Assembly: GCF_017742835.1 (NCBI RefSeq)
Contig: NZ_CP072392.1
Span: forward strand, 3,284,387 to 3,348,386
From: Aquabacter sp. L1I39
GTDB lineage: Bacteria > Pseudomonadota > Alphaproteobacteria > Rhizobiales > Xanthobacteraceae
DNA: 64,000 bases
Reading direction: 5' to 3'
In this document: positions 4,221-54,412 of the stretch, piece after piece
Numbering within the stretch: position 1 is the first letter of the stretch
Layout of the letters: each line of letters starts with the position of its first letter
The notes under the pieces: generated by a model
The model's input: the letters and a program-made list of their open reading frames with translations, nothing else
Databases searched by the model: none
What the model was told of the DNA's origin: nothing
Made by a program: the position numbers and the translations under genes

Positions 4221-5087
4221 GTGACTGATCCCGTGCCGCGCTTCGCGCTCTATGGCGAACCCGACCGGGGCGTTTCCGTGGGCTTCCTGCATGTGGAACG
4301 GGTGATGACGCGGGGCCACCTTCACCAGGGTCAGGTGGAGGCGCACACCCACGACCAGATGGGCCAGATCACCTATTGGGTGAGCGGTAGCGGGCGCTAT
4401 TTCATCGAGGACGACGGCTTGGACTTTTGCGCGCCAGCCATCAGCTTCGTGCCGAGCCGGGTCGTGCACGGTTTCAAGGCGGCGCCGGGCTCCGACGCCA
4501 TCGTTTTGTCCATCGCCGACGGCGCCCTTTCGGCGGTCGGTGCGCTCACCCCCTTCAGCCTCGCCGCGCCGGTCTTTCTCACAGGGCAGGCGGAGGATCC
4601 CGCCTGGGCCCGCCTCGCCCGCCTGATGGCGGCGGTGGAGGAGAGCCACGCCCTCTCCGCCGGCGGGGCGCAGGATGTGACCGCCGGCCTTGCGGTGGCG
4701 GTGCTGGGCGAGATGCGCCAGCTGGCCGCCGGCGCCGATGCCGCCCGTCCCGTGCCGCCCCTCGCCGCCGCGCTGCGGCAGATGGTGGAGCGGCAGTTCC
4801 GCTCCGACTGGAGCGTCCAGCATTATGCGCAGGCGCTCGCCACCACGCCCTATCTGCTGGGCACCGCCAGCAAGGCCGCCTTCGGCCTCACCGTGAAGGA
4901 CCTCATCAGCGCCCGCCGGCTGCTGGAGGCCAAGCGCCTTCTCCTCTTCACCATCCGCCCCCTGGAGGACATCGCCGCCGAGGTGGGATTGCCGGACCCG
5001 GCCTATTTCTCCCGCTTCTTCCGGGCCCGCACCGGGGAAGCCCCCAGCGTCTGGCGTCGCCGCCACATGGCCCATACGCGCGTTTAG
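4221..5087 (+). CDS. hpaA: AraC-family activator of 4-hydroxyphenylacetate catabolism
   Basis: Cytoplasmic regulator with an N-terminal cupin sensor (about residues 20-130, with the HTHDQMGQITYW metal-cupin-like stretch) and a C-terminal double helix-turn-helix of the AraC/XylS family (about 190-285, ending PAYFSRFFRARTGEAPSVWRRRH). This architecture matches HpaA, which activates hpaBC in response to 4-hydroxyphenylacetate. The GTG at 4221 is chosen because GGAG lies 7 bases upstream; a TTG at 4188 is in frame but has no good ribosome binding site. It is divergent from hpaB. Its stop codon overlaps that of the convergent livF gene by two bases, leaving no room for a terminator. Confidence 0.8.
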   Translation: MTDPVPRFALYGEPDRGVSVGFLHVERVMTRGHLHQGQVEAHTHDQMGQITYWVSGSGRYFIEDDGLDFCAPAISFVPSRVVHGFKAAPGSDAIVLSIADGALSAVGALTPFSLAAPVFLTGQAEDPAWARLARLMAAVEESHALSAGGAQDVTAGLAVAVLGEMRQLAAGADAARPVPPLAAALRQMVERQFRSDWSVQHYAQALATTPYLLGTASKAAFGLTVKDLISARRLLEAKRLLLFTIRPLEDIAAEVGLPDPAYFSRFFRARTGEAPSVWRRRHMAHTRV

Positions 5088-45662: not shown

Positions 45663-45972
45663 AGCATGCGCCGAGCAATGAGATAGAGGGTGATTCACTG
45701 AACAGGCGGACTGCACTCCAGAGGGGAGACCCTCCGCCCAGATCCAGTGCTGCGCTCGCGCTTGTAATGGTAAAGCTTTTCAGCGTGCGTCTTCTCTTTC
45801 CCGCAAAGTCTTCAATGTAAAGCTGGCGTTGCGCGGTGTCTTCGCGTGCGTTTTCGCCGCAAGGCGGAACCGTCGCGCCGCCCGGCCGTTTCCCTGAGGT
45901 CCGCGAAAGGCGGCGCCGGCACACGCCGGGCGCCGCTTCCGGACGGACCGCACAATTCAAGGGAATGCCCCA
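45663..45972. other. 310-bp intergenic region with stress promoter and leader hairpin
   Basis: No gene is seen. The right half holds an EcfG-type promoter (45866-45890). Between it and the start codon is a strong stem with one bulged base (45910-45936, arms GCGGCGCCGGC and GCCGGGCGCCGC, loop ACAC), which would lie in the 5' leader of the ferritin-like gene. The left half is AT-richer with nothing further recognised. Confidence 0.6.
45866..45890 (+). promoter_or_regulatory. EcfG-type general stress promoter before the ferritin-like gene
   Basis: GGAAC (45866-45870), 16 bases, CGTT (45887-45890) is a perfect match to the alphaproteobacterial EcfG consensus GGAAC-N16/17-CGTT. It lies about 82 bp before the start codon of the YciF-type gene. 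Four further perfect matches occur in the next 7 kb. Confidence 0.82.
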
Positions 45973-46494
45973 ATGGCTCAGCAGAAGTCGATGAAAGAGG
46001 ACAATGGTCAGGACAATTCTCTGAATGAATTGTTCTTGGATACCCTCAAGGACATCTATTACGCCGAAAAGCAGATCCTGCGCGCGCTTCCCAAGATGGC
46101 CAAGGCAGCCCGCTCCGAGGACCTGAGGAACGCCTTCAAGCAGCACCAGGAGCAGACCGAAGGCCAGATCGAGCGCCTGGAACAGGTCTTCGAGATGCTC
46201 GGCAAGGCCGCGCGCGGCAAGCACTGCCCGGCCATCGTCGGCATCATCGACGAGGGCAAGGAAATCATCGAGGATTTCTCCGGCAAGGAAGCGCTGGATG
46301 CGGGCCTCCTGGCGGGCGCGCAGGCGGTGGAGCATTACGAGATTTCCCGCTACGGCACGCTGAAGACCTGGGCCCAGCAATTGGGCATGCTGGACGCAGT
46401 GCCGCTCTTCGAGGCGACCCTCAAGGAGGAGAAGGAAACCGACGCGCTCCTGACCCGCCTCGCCGGCGCCGAGGTCAACGCCAAGGCGGCGTGA
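45973..46494 (+). CDS. YciF/YciE-type ferritin-like protein (DUF892)
   Basis: 173-residue four-helix protein. It matches the DUF892 family: LNELFLDTLKDIYYAEKQILRALPKMAKAA start, EQTEGQIERLEQVFEML, and LAGAQAVEHYEISRYGTLKTWAQQLG. Glu and His residues in LKDIYYAEKQ, HQEQT, GKEIIEDF and EHYEISRY are the usual di-iron ligand positions. These proteins accumulate under osmotic and oxidative stress; iron binding is known from the family and inferred here. It is the first gene of the stress island and has a perfect EcfG promoter. The ATG at 45973 follows AAGGGAATGCCCCA. Confidence 0.88.
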   Translation: MAQQKSMKEDNGQDNSLNELFLDTLKDIYYAEKQILRALPKMAKAARSEDLRNAFKQHQEQTEGQIERLEQVFEMLGKAARGKHCPAIVGIIDEGKEIIEDFSGKEALDAGLLAGAQAVEHYEISRYGTLKTWAQQLGMLDAVPLFEATLKEEKETDALLTRLAGAEVNAKAA

Positions 46495-46623
46495 CGGCAG
46501 ACCGCGCCTCCGCACCCGTCCTTCGCCCGGCGCGGGAGGGGTGCGCAGCAGGGATGCCGCCCGTGCCGGGCCTGCGCAGGCTCGGCCAGTCCCTGCGACG
46601 CCTCGTCCGCACAGGAGGTCAAT

Positions 46624-46827
46624 ATGTGGCTGAAACCCAAGCTGATCGGAGAGAACGAAGCCGACGGGCATGACGTGATGCCCGGATGGTGGGCGGTGGC
46701 CGAAGACGGCACGCCGGTGTCCGGTCCCTATCCCAGCCGCGAGGCCGCGGTGGTGGGGATCGGCAAGCGCGGCGCCGACCAGCCCACGGGGCGGCCGGGG
46801 GAGGCCGGCCCGCCACCGGAGGAGTGA
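46624..46827 (+). CDS. small hypothetical protein, 67 residues
   Basis: Very short gene with a strong ribosome binding site (AGGAGG, 5 bases before the ATG). The product MWLKPKLIGENEADGHDV... is acidic, with two Trp-containing motifs (PGWWAVAEDG) and a Pro/Gly/Glu-rich tail. No signal peptide or membrane segment. It lies 129 bp after the YciF-type gene and 9 bp before the isochorismatase gene, in the same direction, so it probably shares the stress transcript. Function unknown. Similar small proteins with an N-terminal WLKPxLIxE motif may exist, but I cannot assign a family. Confidence 0.7.
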   Translation: MWLKPKLIGENEADGHDVMPGWWAVAEDGTPVSGPYPSREAAVVGIGKRGADQPTGRPGEAGPPPEE

Positions 46828-46836
46828 GGCCGCGCC

Positions 46837-47457
46837 ATGGGGCAGGGCCTCACGAATGGGCCGCTCGGCAGGCGCGCGGCGCATCTTTGCATCGACATGC
46901 AGCGCCTCTTCGCTCCCGGCGGTCCCTGGCCAACGCCTTGGGCTCCGCGCATCCTGCCCGCCGTGCTGGCGCTGGTCGAGCGGGCGCCAGCCCGCACCGT
47001 CTTTTCCCGTTTCATGCCCCCCGAGACGCCGCAGGACATGCCGGGAGCGTGGCAGCGCTTTTATGAGCGATGGCGGCATCTGACGGGGGAGGTTCTCCCA
47101 CCGGAAATGCTGGATCTGGTGCCGGAATTGAAGGCCTTCGCGCCGCCCGCCCGGGCCGTGGAAAAGTCGCGCTATTCCGCCTTTTCCGGCCCGCGCTGCT
47201 TCCCCGTCCTGCGGCGGCTGGAGGTGGACACCCTGATCCTGTCCGGGGCGGAAACCGATGTGTGCGTACTTGCCACCGTGTTCGACGCGGTGGACCTCGG
47301 CTTTCGCACCATCATCGCGCGGGATGCGGTCTGCTCGTCCTCCGACACCGGGCACGACGCCGTCCTCGCCCTGCTGCGCGCCCGCCTGCCGCAGCAGGTT
47401 GAACTGGCAGACACCGACGAAATCCTGGCGGCGTGGAGCCCCCTGGCCGAGCCATGA
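46837..47457 (+). CDS. isochorismatase-like cysteine hydrolase
   Basis: 206-residue hydrolase. The catalytic triad of the isochorismatase/nicotinamidase superfamily is present: Asp20 in LCIDMQRLF, Lys110 in VEKSRYSAF and Cys143 in ETDVCVLATV. The family cleaves amides or vinyl ethers of small molecules; nothing identifies the substrate. The start at 46837 overlaps no other gene and lies 9 bp after the small 67-residue protein, so it is probably cotranscribed. A stress-response role is inferred from the EcfG promoter upstream of the cluster. Confidence 0.83.
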   Translation: MGQGLTNGPLGRRAAHLCIDMQRLFAPGGPWPTPWAPRILPAVLALVERAPARTVFSRFMPPETPQDMPGAWQRFYERWRHLTGEVLPPEMLDLVPELKAFAPPARAVEKSRYSAFSGPRCFPVLRRLEVDTLILSGAETDVCVLATVFDAVDLGFRTIIARDAVCSSSDTGHDAVLALLRARLPQQVELADTDEILAAWSPLAEP

Positions 47458-47497
47458 TGCCGGCCCGATCTTCTGCCGCGCAACAGTGGAGAGACAC

Positions 47498-48355
47498 ATG
47501 AACGCACCAGCCCGCCCGCCCATGCCCGCCCAGCAGCAGCCCATGCCCGGCTATACCAACGCCATGTCGCCGCGCCCCGATCATGGCGAGACCAGTTATG
47601 AAGGCTCGGGGCGGCTGAAGGGCCTCAAGGCCCTCGTGACCGGCGGCGACAGCGGCATCGGTCGCGCCGTCTGCCTCGCCTTCGCCCGCGAGGGGGCGGA
47701 TGTGTGCATCGCCTATCTGGAGGAGCACGAGGACGCGGAAGAGACGCGCCGCCTGGTGGAGGAGGCTGGCCGCACCGCTATCCTGTCCGCCGGTGACATT
47801 TCCGATCCCCAATTCTGCAAGCGCCTGGTGGATGATGCCGCCGAGGCTTTGGGCGGCCTCGATATCCTGGTCAACAACGCCGCTCATCAGGCGAGCTTCG
47901 AGAAGCCGGAAGATATTTCAGACGAGGAATGGGCGCACACCTTCGCGGTGAACGTGCATGCCATGTTCTATCTCAGCAAGGCCGCGCTGAAGCACATGAA
48001 GGCGGGCGGATCCATCATCAACACGGCCTCCATCAATTCCGATCAGCCCAATCCGTCCCTCCTGGCCTATGCCACCACGAAGGGCGCCATCCACAACTTC
48101 ACCGCCGGACTCGCCCAGGCGCTGGGCGCGCGCAACATCCGGGTGAATGCGGTGGCGCCGGGTCCCATTTGGACGCCGCTCATCCCCTCCACCATGCCGG
48201 AGGAGGCGGTGCGCACTTTCGGCACGTCCGTCCCCATGGGGCGGCCCGGCCAGCCGGCGGAGCTCGCCACCGCCTATGTGATGCTGGCCGATCCGCGCTC
48301 CAGCTATGTTTCGGGAGCAACCGTGGCCGTGACCGGCGGCAAGGCCTTTCTCTGA
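47498..48355 (+). CDS. short-chain dehydrogenase/reductase, YghA/YhdF-type
   Basis: 285-residue NAD(P)-dependent oxidoreductase. An N-terminal Pro/Met/Gln-rich extension (about 45 residues, MSPRPDHGETSYEGSGRLKG) precedes the cofactor motif TGGDSGIGRA (about 52-61). The NNAA motif is in ILVNNAAHQ and the Ser-Tyr-Lys triad in SINSDQPNP...AYATTKGA. The C-terminal SYVSGATVAVTGGKAFL matches the general-stress subgroup. The ATG at 47498 follows GGAGAGACAC. It ends the plus-strand stress transcript. The natural substrate is unknown. Confidence 0.87.
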   Translation: MNAPARPPMPAQQQPMPGYTNAMSPRPDHGETSYEGSGRLKGLKALVTGGDSGIGRAVCLAFAREGADVCIAYLEEHEDAEETRRLVEEAGRTAILSAGDISDPQFCKRLVDDAAEALGGLDILVNNAAHQASFEKPEDISDEEWAHTFAVNVHAMFYLSKAALKHMKAGGSIINTASINSDQPNPSLLAYATTKGAIHNFTAGLAQALGARNIRVNAVAPGPIWTPLIPSTMPEEAVRTFGTSVPMGRPGQPAELATAYVMLADPRSSYVSGATVAVTGGKAFL

Positions 48356-48393
48356 GGGCGTGACACAGCTGCACCGATCCCTTCCGTACCCAT

Positions 48394-48445
48394 CGGCGGC
48401 AGGGGTCGGCGGCAGGGGGCGGCGGCAAGGGTCGGCGGCAAGGGT
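48394..48445 (+). repeat. four tandem copies of a 13-bp repeat
   Basis: Consecutive copies at 48394, 48407, 48420 and 48433 follow the pattern CGGCGGCARGGGT with one or two changes. They lie between the convergent dehydrogenase and hydrolase genes, 25 bp upstream of the hydrolase stop. They look like replication-slippage repeats; the G-rich strand could in principle form non-B structures. Confidence 0.8.
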
Positions 48446-48469
48446 CAGCGCCGATCGCGCACAATGTGA

Positions 48470-49198
48470 TCACCGCGCGCCGATTACCATTTCCTTGATC
48501 CAGTTCACCAGGAGCCGGGTATAGGCGGCGCGGCTGCGCTCATCCGACAGGCCATGGTCCGCGCCGGAAATGATCCGGTAGGTGAGGGAGCGCACCTTCC
48601 GGCAGGCGGAGATGTAATTGGCGATGGTCGGGTGGGGGATATAATCGTCGCTCTCGGACTCGACGATCAGCACATCACCGCGAAACTTCGCGCAAGCCCC
48701 CAACGCGCGGTTCTCGCGCGGTGAAATCTCCTGCGAGCGGAAGAGGTTGAGGTCGATGCGGTCGATCTTTCCCTTGGGCCGATCCCAATGCTTGTCGCGA
48801 TAGATGGCGGGCACGCGCAGCGACATCCAGCGCACGGGACGCACCTCTGAGAGAAGAGGGGCGAGATAGGCGCCATAGCTCGAGCCGATCACGGCGATGG
48901 CGCGCTGGTCGACGCCCGGCTGCGAGACGAGGAGATCATAGGCGGCGAGTGCGTCCTCGAAATTCTGCCGCGGCGTCACTGTATCGCGCATTTCGCGGGT
49001 GGCGGCGTGTCCGCGCAGGTCGAAGGTCAGGCACATGCAGCCCAGCGCCGAAATCTCGGCCGCCCGCCGCAGGTCGCTTTCCTGGCTGCCGGACCAGCCA
49101 TGCAGGAAGAGGATGCCGGGAACGCCGGTGGCCGGTACCGCGAAGGTGCCGTCCACCATCTCCTCCCCGGCCATGAACTGGACCTTCTCACTCCGCAT
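48470..49198 (-). CDS. alpha/beta hydrolase, acylaminoacyl-peptidase-like
   Basis: 242-residue hydrolase. The nucleophile is the second Ser of GSSYGAYLAPL, the acid is an Asp in ESESDDYIPH, and the catalytic His lies in ISGADHGLSDE. The N-terminus MRSEKVQFMAGEEMVDGTFAVP and the LHGWSG oxyanion region support the fold. It overlaps the end of the DUF3182 gene by 11 bp, so the two are coupled and use the same EcfG promoter at 50368-50392. Substrate unknown. A similar pairing of hydrolase and DUF3182 would hint at a shared small-molecule reaction. Confidence 0.8.
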   Translation of the reverse strand: MRSEKVQFMAGEEMVDGTFAVPATGVPGILFLHGWSGSQESDLRRAAEISALGCMCLTFDLRGHAATREMRDTVTPRQNFEDALAAYDLLVSQPGVDQRAIAVIGSSYGAYLAPLLSEVRPVRWMSLRVPAIYRDKHWDRPKGKIDRIDLNLFRSQEISPRENRALGACAKFRGDVLIVESESDDYIPHPTIANYISACRKVRSLTYRIISGADHGLSDERSRAAYTRLLVNWIKEMVIGAR

Positions 49199-50342
49199 GG
49201 GATCGGGATTCGACGAGCGCGTATTTTGTGAGGGTTCCGACTTCGGGGTCGTCAGCATCGTAATAGACATCGGCCTCTTCAGGCGGGCTTTCGGCGCGCC
49301 CATAGACTTCATGACAGGAGGCGACGACGAAGCGCAGGTCGTCATCGCCGGCGAAGGCCCGCAAGGCCGCGATCTCGGCGCCGCTGGCGCCGCCGATGCG
49401 CCAGCTCTGTTCCAAAACGCCTGACCGCAAAGTGCCGCGCGCATCGCGGCCGATGGCCACGTCATAGTTCCGGCGCGAGGCGAAGAAGCCCGAAAAATGG
49501 TGGTCTGCCGCCGCATCGAAGACGCGAGCCTGTTCCAGCGCCTGGGCCATCTGAGGGGAAAGGGTGGCGCGGGCAAAGGCGGAGAAGCCGCCCCGGGCGC
49601 ACAGAAGGCGCGAGCCGCCATAGGCGAGGTTGCCGTCATTGTCCTGCGTCGCGTGCTGGGTGCCCACATAGGCGATCTCATGGCCGCCGATGCGCACCCG
49701 CCCCACCGAGAAGGTGGTGACGTCCGAAAGGTTGGTCTCCAGCACCAGACCGCTCGCGGCAAGGCTGTCCTGCGGCAGGCGCGAAATGATGGCTTCCGCG
49801 TCCAGCGCGTCATGCACCACATGCTGCTGCAATCCGCCATCCGCCCAGCCCGGCTTCAGACGCACGGGGCCGTGGGCCAGAAGGCGATAGAGCGCGGTGC
49901 GCGCGTCGCCATTGGTGAAGGCGGAAAAGCCTGGCAAGGCGTGCGCCATCACGGCCTGAGCGAAGTCCGCGCTCCACCCCTTCGGATGGGCGCAGCCGGG
50001 ACTGGGCAGGGGGTGCACGATGGCTTTTCCCGCCACCACATCATGGGGCACAACGCCGCCGAACAGATCGTCTTCGTCCAAGACGCCGAGCCGTTCGGCC
50101 TCCGCAGCGCCCAGGGTCAGATCGGGGACGAGGTACCGCTCGCCCTTGCGCAGGCCGCGCCCGGCCAGAGGCGCGAGAGCTTGGGCGAGAGCGGCGATGC
50201 TGCGGCTGCGATGGCCAGACTGGTTCAATCCCCCCGACGGGTGGTGGACGATGCGCCGGCCTCCTTCGGGTGAGGGGAAAAGAGGGCTTTTGTCCTGGCT
50301 CCGGCTCGGCATGAAGGGGCTTGTCCAAGGGGTGGGGCGCAT
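49188..50342 (-). CDS. DUF3182-family protein
   Basis: 384-residue protein. It resembles the DUF3182 family by segments such as ERYLVPDLTLGAAEAERLG, DDLFGGVVPHDVVAGKAIVHPL and GWSADFAQAVMAHALPGFSAFTNGDA; the family is probably ATP-grasp-like but is uncharacterised. Internal HGPVRLKPGWADGG and GGHEIAYVGTQHATQDNDGN stretches could belong to such a fold. The ATG at 50342 follows AGGAG by eight bases and lies 26 bp from a perfect EcfG promoter. It is coupled to the downstream hydrolase. I am confident of the family only to a moderate degree; biochemical role unknown. Confidence 0.7.
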   Translation of the reverse strand: MRPTPWTSPFMPSRSQDKSPLFPSPEGGRRIVHHPSGGLNQSGHRSRSIAALAQALAPLAGRGLRKGERYLVPDLTLGAAEAERLGVLDEDDLFGGVVPHDVVAGKAIVHPLPSPGCAHPKGWSADFAQAVMAHALPGFSAFTNGDARTALYRLLAHGPVRLKPGWADGGLQQHVVHDALDAEAIISRLPQDSLAASGLVLETNLSDVTTFSVGRVRIGGHEIAYVGTQHATQDNDGNLAYGGSRLLCARGGFSAFARATLSPQMAQALEQARVFDAAADHHFSGFFASRRNYDVAIGRDARGTLRSGVLEQSWRIGGASGAEIAALRAFAGDDDLRFVVASCHEVYGRAESPPEEADVYYDADDPEVGTLTKYALVESRSHAE

Positions 50343-50367
50343 TGCGCGGTCTCCTGATCGCAGGGTC

Positions 50368-50392
50368 AACGCGGGGCTTCCCTGTGCGTTCC
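50368..50392 (-). promoter_or_regulatory. EcfG-type general stress promoter before the DUF3182-hydrolase pair
   Basis: On the minus strand GGAAC (50392-50388), 16 bases, CGTT (50371-50368). The match is perfect and lies 26 bp before the ATG at 50342. Confidence 0.82.
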
Positions 50393-50426
50393 CCCTGCCT
50401 TCATGCTGCGCGCCACGCACCCGACC

Positions 50427-50615
50427 TCACTGGCGCACCGGCGCATTGCCAGGCTCGGCGGGCGCCGAGGACTGGGCGGGCATGGCCGGGTCAGACGGCG
50501 CGGGCGCGCGTTCGGGAGACGGGTCGATGGTGCGCGTGGTGGGGATGAGAGCCATGATCATCCCCAGCACGAAGACGAGAAAGGCGGCCGCGATGATGAT
50601 GTTCTTGAGGTTCAT
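50427..50615 (-). CDS. small single-span membrane protein, 62 residues
   Basis: The product starts MNLKNIIIAAAFLVFVLGMIMALIPTT, a single hydrophobic segment at residues 5-25, and continues as a Pro/Ala/Ser-rich tail. AAGGAAC lies before the ATG at 50615. It sits 120 bp downstream of the 53-residue membrane protein, in the same direction and within the stress island, so co-expression is likely. No function can be read from the sequence. Confidence 0.68.
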   Translation of the reverse strand: MNLKNIIIAAAFLVFVLGMIMALIPTTRTIDPSPERAPAPSDPAMPAQSSAPAEPGNAPVRQ

Positions 50616-50735
50616 GTTCCTTGCCTTTCCCCGTGCCGTGCCGCCGGATCCGGCGGACTGGGTGCCTGGGTTTCTTTGGGGTCTAATCCACGCCCGCCCG
50701 GACCATGGCGAGCGGAGCGCGCCGTGCGCGGGACG

Positions 50736-50897
50736 TCAGCTTGCGTCTTCACCGGGCAAACGGCGCCCGGTTTCCTGCCGGCGGCGACGGCGCTGCCAGG
50801 CGCCATAGATGATGAAGCCCAGGAGAATGGCGGCCCCGCCCACCACGCCGAAAAAGTAGATGCCCGCTGCTGCGTCGCTGGCCTCAGACCAGTTCAT
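50736..50897 (-). CDS. small single-span membrane protein, 53 residues
   Basis: A very short gene with a strong ribosome binding site GGAGGAA 6 bases before ATG. The product MNWSEASDAAAGIYFFGVVGG... has one hydrophobic segment (residues 13-32) followed by a basic cluster QRRRRRQ and a short tail, so it probably sits in the inner membrane with its basic side in the cytoplasm. A perfect EcfG promoter (50957-50981) lies 60 bp upstream. That promoter makes this short gene credible despite its size. Function unknown. Confidence 0.72.
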   Translation of the reverse strand: MNWSEASDAAAGIYFFGVVGGAAILLGFIIYGAWQRRRRRQETGRRLPGEDAS

Positions 50898-50956
50898 AAG
50901 AGTTCCTCCGTTTGGGCCGCCAGCGTTGCGGCGGTGCGTCGGCTTGCTACCGAGGC

Positions 50957-50981
50957 AACGGGAGGGGGGCGGCTTGGTTCC
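50957..50981 (-). promoter_or_regulatory. EcfG-type general stress promoter before the small membrane proteins
   Basis: On the minus strand GGAAC (50981-50977), 16 bases, CGTT (50960-50957), a perfect consensus match 60 bp before the 53-residue gene. Confidence 0.8.
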
Positions 50982-51020
50982 TGCGCGCGGGGTGCGTTGC
51001 GCCGTCCAGGTCGGCGCGCC

Positions 51021-52184
51021 TCAGGTGCTTTCGCGGATCAGCGTGGCGAGCAGCGTCGCGCGGCGCATGGGCGAGCGGTAGCGCTTCAGAAATTGCGAAA
51101 AGCGGCTCAGCGTGCCGTCCTCGAACGCCTCCACCACCGCCGGCAGGACATAGCTCTTGCGGCAGATGGCCGGCGTGTTGTGCAGGGTTTCGGCGGCGAT
51201 GCGCACCGCCTCCAGGATTTGCGCATTGCGCCGCCGGTCGCTGGCTGCCGGCTCCCGGACGGCCAATTCCTCCAGCACCCTTGCGGAAGCGACCAGGGTG
51301 CGGAAATCCTTGAGCGAGACCGGGATGCCGGACACCTGCTTGAGATAGGCATTCACATCCCCCGCCCGCACCGGCCGCACCTCGTCTTGGGCGTTGCGAT
51401 ACTGGAACAGACGCCGCCCCGGCAATTGGCGCAAGGCCGCCACCAGGGACAGGAAGCGGGGATCTGCGATGGCGCAGACCACCTTCCGGCCGCCCTTGGC
51501 CTGGAAGCTCAGCTCCAGGCCCTGCGGCTTGTGCCGCAGGTTGGATTTCAGCAGCGTCGCTGCGCCGCGCGTGCCGCGCTCCCTGGCATAGGCTTCCTCG
51601 CCCGGCCGGATGGCGGTGAGGGTCACCAGTTCCACCACGCCCGCCAGAGCCAGCAGACGGGACCCCACCGGGGCTGAGAGGTCGCGGGCGACGCGTCGGC
51701 GGATGCGGGGCAGGGCCTCGGCGAAACGGGCGAGCCGTTCAGCCTTCAACTGGCCGCGCACCGCTTCCCAATCGGGGTGATAGCGATATTGCACCCGCCC
51801 TGCCGCATCGCGCCCGACCGCCTGGAGATGGGCGCGCGGATGGGACGCGAAGCGCACATCCGCATAGGCGGGCGGCACCGCAAGGGCGGCGAGCCGCGAA
51901 ATCAGGTCCTTGTCGGTGATGGGCTTTCCCGTGCCATCGAAATAGCGATAGCCCCGCCCGCAGCGGCGCCGGGTGATGTTCAGCGTGTCTCGCCGCACCA
52001 TGACGAGGCCCGCCGCGCGGGCAAGCTGGGCCGTGGTGCGCGCCCGCGCCTTGCGCGACGTCGGCTTGCTGGGTGTCGGATTGGCCACCGGCGGCTTCCG
52101 CTGTGCGGGGCTGCTGGGTGTGACGGTGGATGGCAGGGCGGGGCGTTCGGGCCGGGCGGAAAGGGAAGCAGGGTGCAAGGGCAT
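51021..52184 (-). CDS. DNA topoisomerase type IB (poxvirus-like)
   Basis: 387-residue enzyme that relaxes supercoils through a 3'-phosphotyrosine. Catalytic positions are Arg193 in AIRPGEEAYA, a Lys near 230-234 in QAKGGRKVV, Arg295 in SLKDFRTLVAS, His335 in LHNTP and the nucleophile Tyr345 in CRKSYVLP. The N-terminal Pro/Ser/Lys-rich stretch of about 55 residues is not part of the core. Such small bacterial IB topoisomerases are common accessory genes in alphaproteobacteria. A perfect EcfG promoter (52262-52286) sits about 78 bp before the start, so it is likely induced in stress. Confidence 0.87.
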   Translation of the reverse strand: MPLHPASLSARPERPALPSTVTPSSPAQRKPPVANPTPSKPTSRKARARTTAQLARAAGLVMVRRDTLNITRRRCGRGYRYFDGTGKPITDKDLISRLAALAVPPAYADVRFASHPRAHLQAVGRDAAGRVQYRYHPDWEAVRGQLKAERLARFAEALPRIRRRVARDLSAPVGSRLLALAGVVELVTLTAIRPGEEAYARERGTRGAATLLKSNLRHKPQGLELSFQAKGGRKVVCAIADPRFLSLVAALRQLPGRRLFQYRNAQDEVRPVRAGDVNAYLKQVSGIPVSLKDFRTLVASARVLEELAVREPAASDRRRNAQILEAVRIAAETLHNTPAICRKSYVLPAVVEAFEDGTLSRFSQFLKRYRSPMRRATLLATLIREST

Positions 52185-52261
52185 CGGACGGCATCATCCT
52201 TCGGGATGGAGCGATGCGCCTGCGGAAAATCGGGCCGGCTGATCCTCCCCCGTGGCAGAGC

Positions 52262-52286
52262 AACGCGCCGCTGGCGCGCCTGTTCC
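52262..52286 (-). promoter_or_regulatory. EcfG-type general stress promoter before topoisomerase IB
   Basis: On the minus strand GGAAC (52286-52282), 16 bases, CGTT (52265-52262), a perfect consensus match. It is back to back with a weaker plus-strand candidate starting at 52298. Confidence 0.82.
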
Positions 52287-52297
52287 TGCCCGGCGGG

Positions 52298-52323
52298 GGA
52301 ACGGGAAGCTACAAGCCGGCATT
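52298..52323 (+). promoter_or_regulatory. weak EcfG-like promoter before the 108-residue membrane protein
   Basis: GGAAC (52298-52302), 17 bases, CATT (52320-52323); one mismatch to the CGTT box. It is divergent from the perfect match on the other strand and lies 31 bp before the 52355 start. Supported mainly by its company. Confidence 0.4.
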
Positions 52324-52354
52324 CCCCTTTTGTCGCTAGAAAAGGAATCGACCC

Positions 52355-52681
52355 ATGACCGAAACGCCCAATCCCGCGCCGCGCGTGCGCCATGCCGTGG
52401 ACAGCGGCGAGACACGCGACAAGATCCGCTATTCCGACCCGGCCGCCGCTCCGCTTGGCACCGACGACGAGGCCGCTGGCCTGCCGCCGCGCGTGGACGG
52501 ACCGCCGGAAAAGGGCGACCGCATCGCCGACGGCGACACGTCCATGGGCGAGCTCTATGAGCCCGAAAGCGAGGAGGACAATCGCGCCCCCGCGACCGCA
52601 CCGCCCAGCTGGCGCACCTGGGGCTTGATCGCTGCGGGCATTCTGGTGTTCGGCATCGCCGTGGCGACACTTGCCGGCTGA
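52355..52681 (+). CDS. hypothetical protein with C-terminal membrane anchor, 108 residues
   Basis: Acidic, probably disordered N-terminal region (residues 1-83, rich in Asp, Glu, Pro, Ala) followed by one C-terminal hydrophobic helix (about 86-107, WRTWGLIAAGILVFGIAVATLAG). This is the layout of a tail-anchored inner-membrane protein. AAAGGAA lies shortly before the ATG. It is divergent from topoisomerase IB. A weak EcfG-like promoter lies upstream, so stress expression is possible. No family recognised. Confidence 0.68.
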   Translation: MTETPNPAPRVRHAVDSGETRDKIRYSDPAAAPLGTDDEAAGLPPRVDGPPEKGDRIADGDTSMGELYEPESEEDNRAPATAPPSWRTWGLIAAGILVFGIAVATLAG

Positions 52682-52710
52682 GCGCACCGCAAGGACGTGT
52701 CGCGGCCCCC

Positions 52711-53010
52711 TCAGCGCCGCTGACGGCCGTCCTTCTGCTCGCCCACCAAAGCGGCGGTGTCTCCAAAGGTCGGTGCGCTGCCTGCGGCGAGGTTGGTGGC
52801 CGCAAGAAGAAAACGGATGGGAAACCGTACGCCTTCCGCCTGTGCCGGAGAGAGGTTGCGCGCTTGCGTCTCCTGCCGCGCCGCCAGGTCCGCCTCCTGC
52901 AGCGCGGTCTCGATCTCCTGCTGCGTCAGAAGTCCCTTCCGCCGAGCGGTCTCCAGCAGGCGCGATATGGCCAGGAGCAGGCCCTCGAGCTGCAGGTTGG
53001 CTGTATTCAT
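52711..53010 (-). CDS. hypothetical protein, 99 residues
   Basis: A small soluble protein that looks mostly helical (MNTANLQLEGLLLAISRLLETARRKG, then LLTQQEIETALQEADLAARQE). No signal peptide or recognisable motif. The perfect EcfG promoter at 53056-53080 is 46 bp upstream of the ATG at 53010. It converges with the 108-residue gene 30 bp away. The stress promoter supports it as a real gene. Function unknown. Confidence 0.7.
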   Translation of the reverse strand: MNTANLQLEGLLLAISRLLETARRKGLLTQQEIETALQEADLAARQETQARNLSPAQAEGVRFPIRFLLAATNLAAGSAPTFGDTAALVGEQKDGRQRR

Positions 53011-53055
53011 CAGCGGCTCCGTCCTTCCGAAACATGCATTGGGTAATCAGAACCA

Positions 53056-53080
53056 AACGGAGACGATGCCGTAGGGTTCC
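53056..53080 (-). promoter_or_regulatory. EcfG-type general stress promoter before the 99-residue protein
   Basis: On the minus strand GGAAC (53080-53076), 16 bases, CGTT (53059-53056), a perfect consensus match 46 bp before the ATG. Confidence 0.82.
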
Positions 53081-53302: not shown

Positions 53303-54412
53303 GTGAGCGCTGACAAACTGCGCGTGGCCCTTGTTGGCGTCGGCAATTGTGCCTCCTCCCTGGTCCAGGGGCTCGTCCACTACCGCACCGCCAGCGCGGG
53401 CGCCTCCATACCGGGCCTGATGACCGCCGATCTCGGAGGCTACGAGGTCGGGGACATCGAGATCTGCGCCGCCTTCGACGTGTCCGCTGCCAAGGTAGGG
53501 CGCGACGTGAGCGCGGCCATCCACGCGCCGCCCAACAACACCCATGTCTTTGCCGACGTTCCCCCTCTCGGCGTCACCGTCTCCCGGGGCCCGACCCTGG
53601 ATGGCATCGGTCGCTACATGACCGATCTCATAAAAGAGGCGCCCGAGCCACCCTGCAATGTCGCGCACGTGCTGCGCGAGAGCGGCGCGGACGTGATGGT
53701 CTGCTACCTGCCGGTGGGCTCCGAGCGGGCGGCGGAATGGTATATGGAACAGGCGCTTGAAGCCGGATGCGGCGTCGTGAACTGCCTGCCCGTCTTCATC
53801 GCGTCGCGGCCGGAATGGCGGGCACGCTTCGAGGCGCGGGGGCTGCCCATCATCGGCGACGATATCAAGAGCCAGGTGGGCGCCACCATCGTTCACCGCA
53901 TGCTCGCCACCCTCTTTTCCGAGCGCGGCGTGCGGCTCGACCGCACCTACCAGCTCAATGTGGGTGGCAATGCGGATTTCCAGAACATGCTGGAGCGCGA
54001 TCGGCTCGCCTCCAAGAAGATTTCCAAGACGCAGGCCGTGACCAGCCAGTGCCCGCAGCCCTTGCCGGAGGGCGACGTGCATGTGGGGCCAAGCGACTAT
54101 GTGCCCTGGCTCACCGACCGCAAGATCGCTTTCATCCGCCTGGAGGGTACCGCCTTCGGCGGCGTGCCGCTCTCCGCCGAGGTGAAGCTGGAGGTGTGGG
54201 ATTCGCCTAACTCCGCCGGCATCGTCATCGATGCGGTGCGCTGCGTGAAGCTGGCTTTGGATCGGGGCATAGGCGGGGCTCTCGTTGGGCCATCCAGCTA
54301 TTTCATGAAATCCCCGCCCGAGCAGTTCACCGACGCCGAGGCGCGCGAGCGGACCCAGCGCTTCATCGCTGGCGCCGACCAGATGCCGGTGCCGCTGAGG
54401 CGCCCGGCGTGA
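53303..54412 (+). CDS. ino1: inositol-1-phosphate synthase
   Basis: 369-residue NAD-dependent enzyme that converts glucose-6-phosphate to inositol-1-phosphate. The cofactor motif [16 protein letters not shown] is near the N-terminus, and the catalytic-core motifs [14 protein letters not shown] and [12 protein letters not shown] follow, as in the short prokaryotic type of the family. The GTG at 53303 follows GGAG by seven bases; an ATG five codons earlier overlaps that site. Its stop overlaps the phosphatase start, linking inositol phosphate to the cassette. Inositol in alphaproteobacteria is used for lipids or sugars, so this may supply the acceptor for the downstream glycosyltransferases. 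Confidence 0.87.

Follow-up and report, generated by a model that had tools for sequence, protein, structure and literature searches.

Sites and genes of the cluster

The window analysed here, 64,000 nucleotides of the single 5,388,224 bp contig of Aquabacter sp. L1I39 (Xanthobacteraceae), contains five exact copies of GGAAC-N16-CGTT within positions 45866-53080. This is the motif of EcfG, an extracytoplasmic function (ECF) sigma factor, as given in passages of PMC3892343 and PMC7083833. All five spacers are 16 nt long, and no other match to GGAAC-N(15-18)-CGTT occurs in the window. Every site is followed by a gene on the same strand, with a gap of 25-82 nt between site and start; by a rule of thumb in a section of PMC6599016, EcfG sites usually stand no more than about 100 nt from the gene start. 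An earlier note on this DNA had claimed five exact sites with identical spacing, and all of them are found where it placed them:

45866..45890, + strand: EcfG-type promoter of the DUF892 gene, 82 nt to ATG 45973
50368..50392, - strand: EcfG-type promoter of the DUF3182-hydrolase pair, 25 nt to ATG 50342
50957..50981, - strand: EcfG-type promoter of the gene for a protein of 53 amino acids (aa), 59 nt to ATG 50897
52262..52286, - strand: EcfG-type promoter of the topoisomerase IB gene, 77 nt to ATG 52184
53056..53080, - strand: EcfG-type promoter of the 99-aa gene, 45 nt to ATG 53010
52298..52323, + strand: candidate sixth, degenerate EcfG site (GGAAC-N17-CATT) of the divergent 108-aa gene

The cluster comprises eleven genes, with protein families assigned by Pfam matches over the cut-off:

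45973..46494, + strand: DUF892 protein, 173 aa (PF05974, E 1.5e-59)
46624..46827, + strand: 67-aa protein
46837..47457, + strand: isochorismatase-family hydrolase (PF00857, E 3.2e-33)
47498..48355, + strand: short-chain dehydrogenase (SDR), with which the presumed DUF892 operon ends (PF13561, E 8.1e-61)
48470..49198, - strand: alpha/beta hydrolase, partner of DUF3182 (PF00326, PF12697)
49188..50342, - strand: DUF3182 protein, 384 aa (Pfam E 1.4e-123)
50427..50615, - strand: 62-aa small protein
50736..50897, - strand: 53-aa small protein, a membrane protein by the earlier note's reading of the sequence only
51021..52184, - strand: bacterial DNA topoisomerase IB, 387 aa (PF21338, E 1e-18; PF01028, E 2.7e-17)
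52355..52681, + strand: 108-aa protein
52711..53010, - strand: 99-aa protein of a family without a name

DUF892 proteins are, as we take it, ferritin-like. The 67-, 62-, 53-, 108- and 99-aa proteins have no Pfam match over the cut-off. No exact site of their own is present before the 67-aa, isochorismatase, SDR, 62-aa and 108-aa genes and the hydrolase gene, which overlaps the end of the DUF3182 gene by 11 nt. The 67-aa and isochorismatase genes are probably co-transcribed with DUF892, and the 62-aa gene possibly lies downstream in the 53-aa transcript. For DUF3182, ATG 50342 is the likely start as judged from the sequence, rather than GTG 50420 of the mechanical open reading frame (ORF) list: GTG 50420 would place the promoter within the gene, and in a sister species the site is located 26 nt before the homologous start, matching the distance found here.

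The core locus of PhyR and EcfG

Genes for PhyR, a NepR candidate, EcfG and a Cache/HisKA_2 kinase are combined in one locus about 2 Mb from the window. The partner switch of PhyR, NepR and EcfG is stated in the abstract of PMC4814048. PhyR exceeds its NCBIfam cut-off (NF006623, 334 bits against 240). EcfG was identified by its sigma-70 domains and by its position next to phyR and the nepR candidate, because no EcfG-specific model is over its cut-off; the genome has no second close EcfG, the other three matching places being 27-30% identical. Exact sites are located 5' of ecfG (N16) and of phyR (N17). A further exact N16 site, about 290 nt 5' of the nepR candidate, may act on something other than this gene. 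The nepR candidate (+) and ecfG (-) sit side by side and point towards each other (L011:10461-11542); unlike nepR2-ecfG1 of Sphingopyxis, they form no operon. Two members of the locus have low scores, which count against an EcfG system: the NepR candidate (92 aa) reaches 22.7 bits in Pfam (E 7.6e-5) against a cut-off of 25.7, and 27.1 in NCBIfam against 100, while the best NCBIfam match of the kinase, PhyK, has 233 bits, below the cut-off of 750.

It is improbable that the sites are recognised instead by a different ECF sigma factor whose -35 box is also of the GGAAC type, or by several sigma factors. The three further places that match EcfG at 27-30% identity would provide candidates, and the -35 box alone is not specific, because GGAAC also opens the HrpL motif of Pseudomonas syringae (in a part of PMC3247240). 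Both boxes and the 16-nt spacing, however, equal the published EcfG motif, the same sites stand 5' of ecfG and phyR themselves, and 62 betaproteobacterial and gammaproteobacterial DUF3182 loci, treated below, are devoid of the exact motif.

Distribution of the motif in the genome

The earlier note had proposed a genome scan with the same consensus, and its outcome speaks for EcfG, with the core locus carrying the same sites as the cluster. The genome contains 53 exact N16 and 21 exact N17 sites. Spacings of 10-24 sum to 358 matches, about 21.8 for each spacing besides 16 and 17; these counts are approximate because only one spacing is shown per start. N16 is thus in excess (53 vs 21.8, Poisson 1e-8). 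Intergenic positions are occupied by 40 of the 53 N16 sites, although 84% of the fetched sequence was called coding, and the next gene is on the same strand in 34 of these 40. Genes were called by a rough codon-usage finder that shifts some starts and overlooks short genes such as the nepR candidate and that of the 53-aa protein. Several intergenic sites precede genes whose protein starts resemble what we take to be classic stress genes. The second DUF892 gene of the genome (L015, G000:C1:405629-405760) likewise has an exact EcfG site, followed about 80 nt on by a second exact one in the opposite orientation.

Only this cluster and the phyR-ecfG locus gather at least five N16/N17 sites in 7,215 bp, and random placement of 53 points brought five that close in 1 of 20,000 runs. 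The earlier note had called the cluster a general stress response island; the word holds for a cluster of regulon genes, and only that meaning applies.

Chance, made easier by a short motif in GC-rich DNA, is a very improbable source of the five matches. In the cluster itself, composition (window GC 68.2%) predicts 0.043 sites in 7,215 bp, so that the note's estimate of 0.05 was about right, and dinucleotide-preserving shuffles (n=100) gave a mean of 0.82 matches per whole window, with five reached in 0/100. The genome as a whole provides the points on the side of chance. Composition alone predicts 32 sites in the genome; 13 of the 53 N16 sites lie inside predicted genes, and therefore some exact matches are due to chance; and a reversed-pattern control is commoner than the motif (113 vs 74; 944 vs 358). 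The last two points also weigh against EcfG control, and so does the lack of a genome-wide excess of N17 (21 vs 21.8), though the site of phyR itself is of this kind. The rarity of such clusters and the genes that follow all five sites stand against chance, and so does the comparison with the sister species that follows.

Conservation in Aquabacter sp. P-9

Aquabacter sp. P-9, of the same genus, has the complete set of eleven genes, DUF892 through the 99-aa gene, in identical order, and all five sites are exact, with their places unchanged. Across the five sites, 45/45 box bases are identical, versus 59/80 spacer bases (Fisher P 2.8e-5, in this comparison with one sister species). The boxes are kept 9/9 throughout, while the identical spacer positions number 15/16 (DUF892), 9/16 (DUF3182), 12/16 (53-aa gene), 11/16 (topoisomerase IB) and 12/16 (99-aa gene). 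Boxes kept while spacers drift already contradict chance, and indicate, at the level of sequence, that the five putative switches are kept by selection.

The ratio of nonsynonymous to synonymous changes per site (pN/pS) of the eleven genes ranges from 0.03 to 0.44 and is highest in the 62-aa gene (identity 71%). It amounts to 0.06 in the 67-aa gene (identity 96%), 0.10 in the 53-aa gene (identity 91%), 0.25 in the 108-aa gene and 0.12 in the 99-aa gene. The small ORFs are supported as real genes because nonsynonymous changes per site are fewer than synonymous ones.

Two overlapping one-mismatch EcfG-like sites occupy positions 52298-52325 on opposite strands, between the topoisomerase IB and 108-aa genes. 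The degenerate site 52298..52323 has no counterpart at the same place in P-9; its CATT occurs as a -10 box of a promoter that EcfG transcribes in vitro in another species (PMC7083833). A more remote relative (L090) possesses an exact N16 site (4691-4715, -) just 5' of its 108-aa homologue. P-9 has a one-mismatch N17 site (L088 12257-12282) just 5' of its topoisomerase IB site, so topoisomerase IB may have tandem promoters.

Sites before homologous genes in wider relatives

The cluster genes are dispersed in more distant members of the family, yet the sites stay with the genes. Among 30 family loci of DUF892 taken from the matches listed (own and P-9 excluded), 17 have an exact N16 or N17 site upstream, with four matches in all at 19 other spacings. 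For topoisomerase IB, 30 loci out of 52 matches were sampled, including the own one and that of P-9. Here an exact site occurs in 9/30 upstreams (7/28 without own and P-9), one of the nine lying far upstream and the starts being projected, not mapped; 19 other spacings yield three matches in all. With one mismatch allowed, these upstreams contain 16 N16 and 15 N17 sites against a mean of 2.7. Topoisomerase IB of Sphingomonas melonis is EcfG-dependent according to Table 1 of PMC6599016, which gives the top EcfG-regulated genes (GGAAC-N17-CATT, log2 -3.5). The SDR gene or its 67-aa neighbour is preceded by an exact N16/N17 site in 3/3 of the other alphaproteobacterial loci that have an SDR homologue (L089, L090, L091).

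Control upstreams of rpoZ have an exact N16/N17 site in 0/30. Two results of this comparison sit badly with EcfG control. The rpoZ control exceeds its background for N17 when one mismatch is allowed (4 vs a mean of 1.0; N16 1), and the 99-aa gene lacks an exact site in 4 of 6 loci, having none in any of the four more distant relatives; three of these four possess one-mismatch sites.

It is conceivable, if unlikely, that real EcfG promoters are confined to DUF892, topoisomerase and DUF3182 and that the sites before the 53-aa and 99-aa genes have little effect, being a peculiarity of the lineage. The distribution of the 99-aa sites just described would fit this, as would the homologue search for the 53-aa protein, which listed a single, very close protein (92% identical). 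On the other side, both sites are exact in P-9 with spacers 12/16 identical each, and the low pN/pS of the two genes reflects few amino-acid changes relative to silent ones.

The earlier note's view that the sites are read by EcfG is supported by the core locus, the conservation in P-9, and the upstreams of DUF892 and topoisomerase IB.

The DUF3182-hydrolase pair

DUF3182 loci were taken from the best 80 of at least 587 named records and from the own genome, and comprise 19 alpha-, 22 beta- and 40 gammaproteobacterial loci, with classes taken from the record titles. The hydrolase gene is located on the same strand in 81/81 loci, starting -7 to +93 nt from the end of the DUF3182 match, and plasmid records have it directly 3' of DUF3182 in 9/9, which makes 90/90 loci. 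An Agrobacterium plasmid (L216) carries the pair about 1 kb from two Hsp20-family genes. DUF3182 itself is rare around this genome, being over the Pfam cut-off in 6/198 sampled genomes of the family and 1/240 of the class, the own genome being included in both.

An exact EcfG site within 500 nt 5' of the DUF3182 match is present in 7/19 alpha-, 0/22 beta- and 0/40 gammaproteobacterial loci. One-mismatch sites (N16 and N17 together) number 18, 5 and 2, respectively, against means of 2.3, 1.1 and 2.6 at other spacings. The eight Xanthobacteraceae loci, own and P-9 included, have exact sites in six cases and GGAAC-N17-GGTT in the remaining two. Near-matches of this sort may count, because CATT, GGTT and TGTT all occur as -10 boxes of promoters that EcfG transcribes in vitro in Sphingopyxis granuli (in a part of PMC7083833). 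The other alphaproteobacterial loci speak against a wider link, with an exact site in 1/11 (Paracoccus) and, among plasmid-borne copies, in 0/6. The earlier note had tied DUF3182 to the regulon; the tie stands in the Xanthobacteraceae and is weak in other Alphaproteobacteria. Its EcfG site thus appears, from these sequences, to be mainly a trait of the Xanthobacteraceae.

DUF3182 was assigned to the ATP-grasp fold from sequence in 2015 (in a part of PMC4431377). The predicted structure of the present protein has an ATP-grasp fold with a predicted local distance difference test (pLDDT) score of 90.4. Nearly the whole model is matched by the folds of the ATP-grasp proteins 3wvq/3wvr, 8ynd (a Streptomyces ATP-grasp peptide ligase) and 2xcl (GAR synthetase), with sequence identity of 12-17%. 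Unlike those ATP-grasp ligases, DUF3182 has an alpha/beta hydrolase neighbour in every locus examined. Eight DUF3182 residues are identical in 80/80 sequences, namely K106, K163, E202, R290, N292, D294, E311 and R315, which we take to be typical of ATP- and metal-binding sites. In the hydrolase S107, D184 and H215 are identical in 80/80, as is G109, and G105 in 79/80; by position, these presumably form a Ser-Asp-His triad with its G-x-S-x-G motif.

A different pair of boxes, GAACTT-N16/17-TCNNA, lies 5' of DUF3182 in 5/40 gammaproteobacterial loci (L141, L172, L196, L204, L209), belonging to P. guariconensis, P. putida and three Pseudomonas without species name. No match occurs at other spacings between 8 and 28, and none of the Stutzerimonas DUF3182 loci has a site of this type. 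The consensus for AlgU (sigma 22) of Pseudomonas reads GAACTT-N16-17-TCcaA in a part of PMC3247240, and differs from EcfG sites in its sigma factor and its boxes. With one mismatch, 30 non-near-duplicate gammaproteobacterial loci contain 5 N16 and 4 N17 sites, against 0-3 elsewhere. The AlgU sites are a lead only, because the motif was tried after the absence of EcfG sites had been seen and because the five loci are related; on this footing, a stress ECF sigma other than EcfG may control the pair. We tentatively suggest that the pair is an autonomous two-enzyme stress module that has repeatedly come under whichever stress ECF sigma factor is local: EcfG in the Xanthobacteraceae, AlgU in some Pseudomonas. 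Equally speculative is the idea that the module acts on a small protective compound or a modification of proteins, which the ATP-grasp ligase makes and the hydrolase trims or unmakes.

The 99-aa protein and the flank of the cluster

The family of the 99-aa protein comprises 88 proteins, own included, and the start MNTANLQxEG is invariant in the 31/31 members that were aligned (31 of 88). Its predicted structure consists of four helices (pLDDT 90.4). A match of the 99-aa protein to sigma region 1.1 is weak and was not confirmed.

Just past the cluster, a myo-inositol-1-phosphate synthase gene (53303-54412) has no exact EcfG site upstream, and no homologue of it is reported in the 19.9-kb P-9 stretch.

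Proposed regulation and significance

Directly observed are the sites, their excess in the genome, the persistence of their boxes while the spacers drift, and the presence of just one close EcfG. With these, and as judged from sequence comparison, the stretch is very probably a cluster of general-stress-response genes driven by EcfG. We infer EcfG control, the transcript borders and the protein functions in the following form. Under stress, as in the published pathway, a PhyK-like kinase would phosphorylate PhyR, which would then remove the anti-sigma factor NepR from EcfG. RNA polymerase with EcfG would bind GGAAC and CGTT 16 nt apart, with transcripts starting shortly after CGTT. At least five transcripts are expected from the cluster: DUF892 - 67 aa - isochorismatase - SDR; DUF3182 - alpha/beta hydrolase; 53 aa - 62 aa; topoisomerase IB; and 99 aa. 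A weaker sixth transcript may serve the 108-aa gene. Given its ATP-grasp fold, DUF3182 would be an ATP-dependent ligase forming an amide or similar bond, and its hydrolase partner would process or reverse the product.

The cluster is, as is well supported, of the ordinary kind found in EcfG regulons. It shares its boxes, its spacing, the presence of PhyR and EcfG, and topoisomerase IB among the targets with the EcfG (ECF15) regulons of Rhizobium etli, Sphingopyxis granuli and Sphingomonas melonis. Unlike in those regulons, DUF3182-hydrolase and small proteins appear among the putative targets here, and a group of five sites stands about 2 Mb away from the core locus. A literature search on EcfG together with Xanthobacter found no paper, and one on DUF892 with EcfG or PhyR found none among the matches listed.

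What the analysis adds is the conserved DUF3182-hydrolase pair, its newest part, and the accompanying small proteins. The comparisons provide a list of likely EcfG targets for the Xanthobacteraceae, to which the 99-aa family adds a further small-protein candidate. A nearly unstudied DUF3182-hydrolase pair becomes linked to the general stress response, which gives its function a testable condition.

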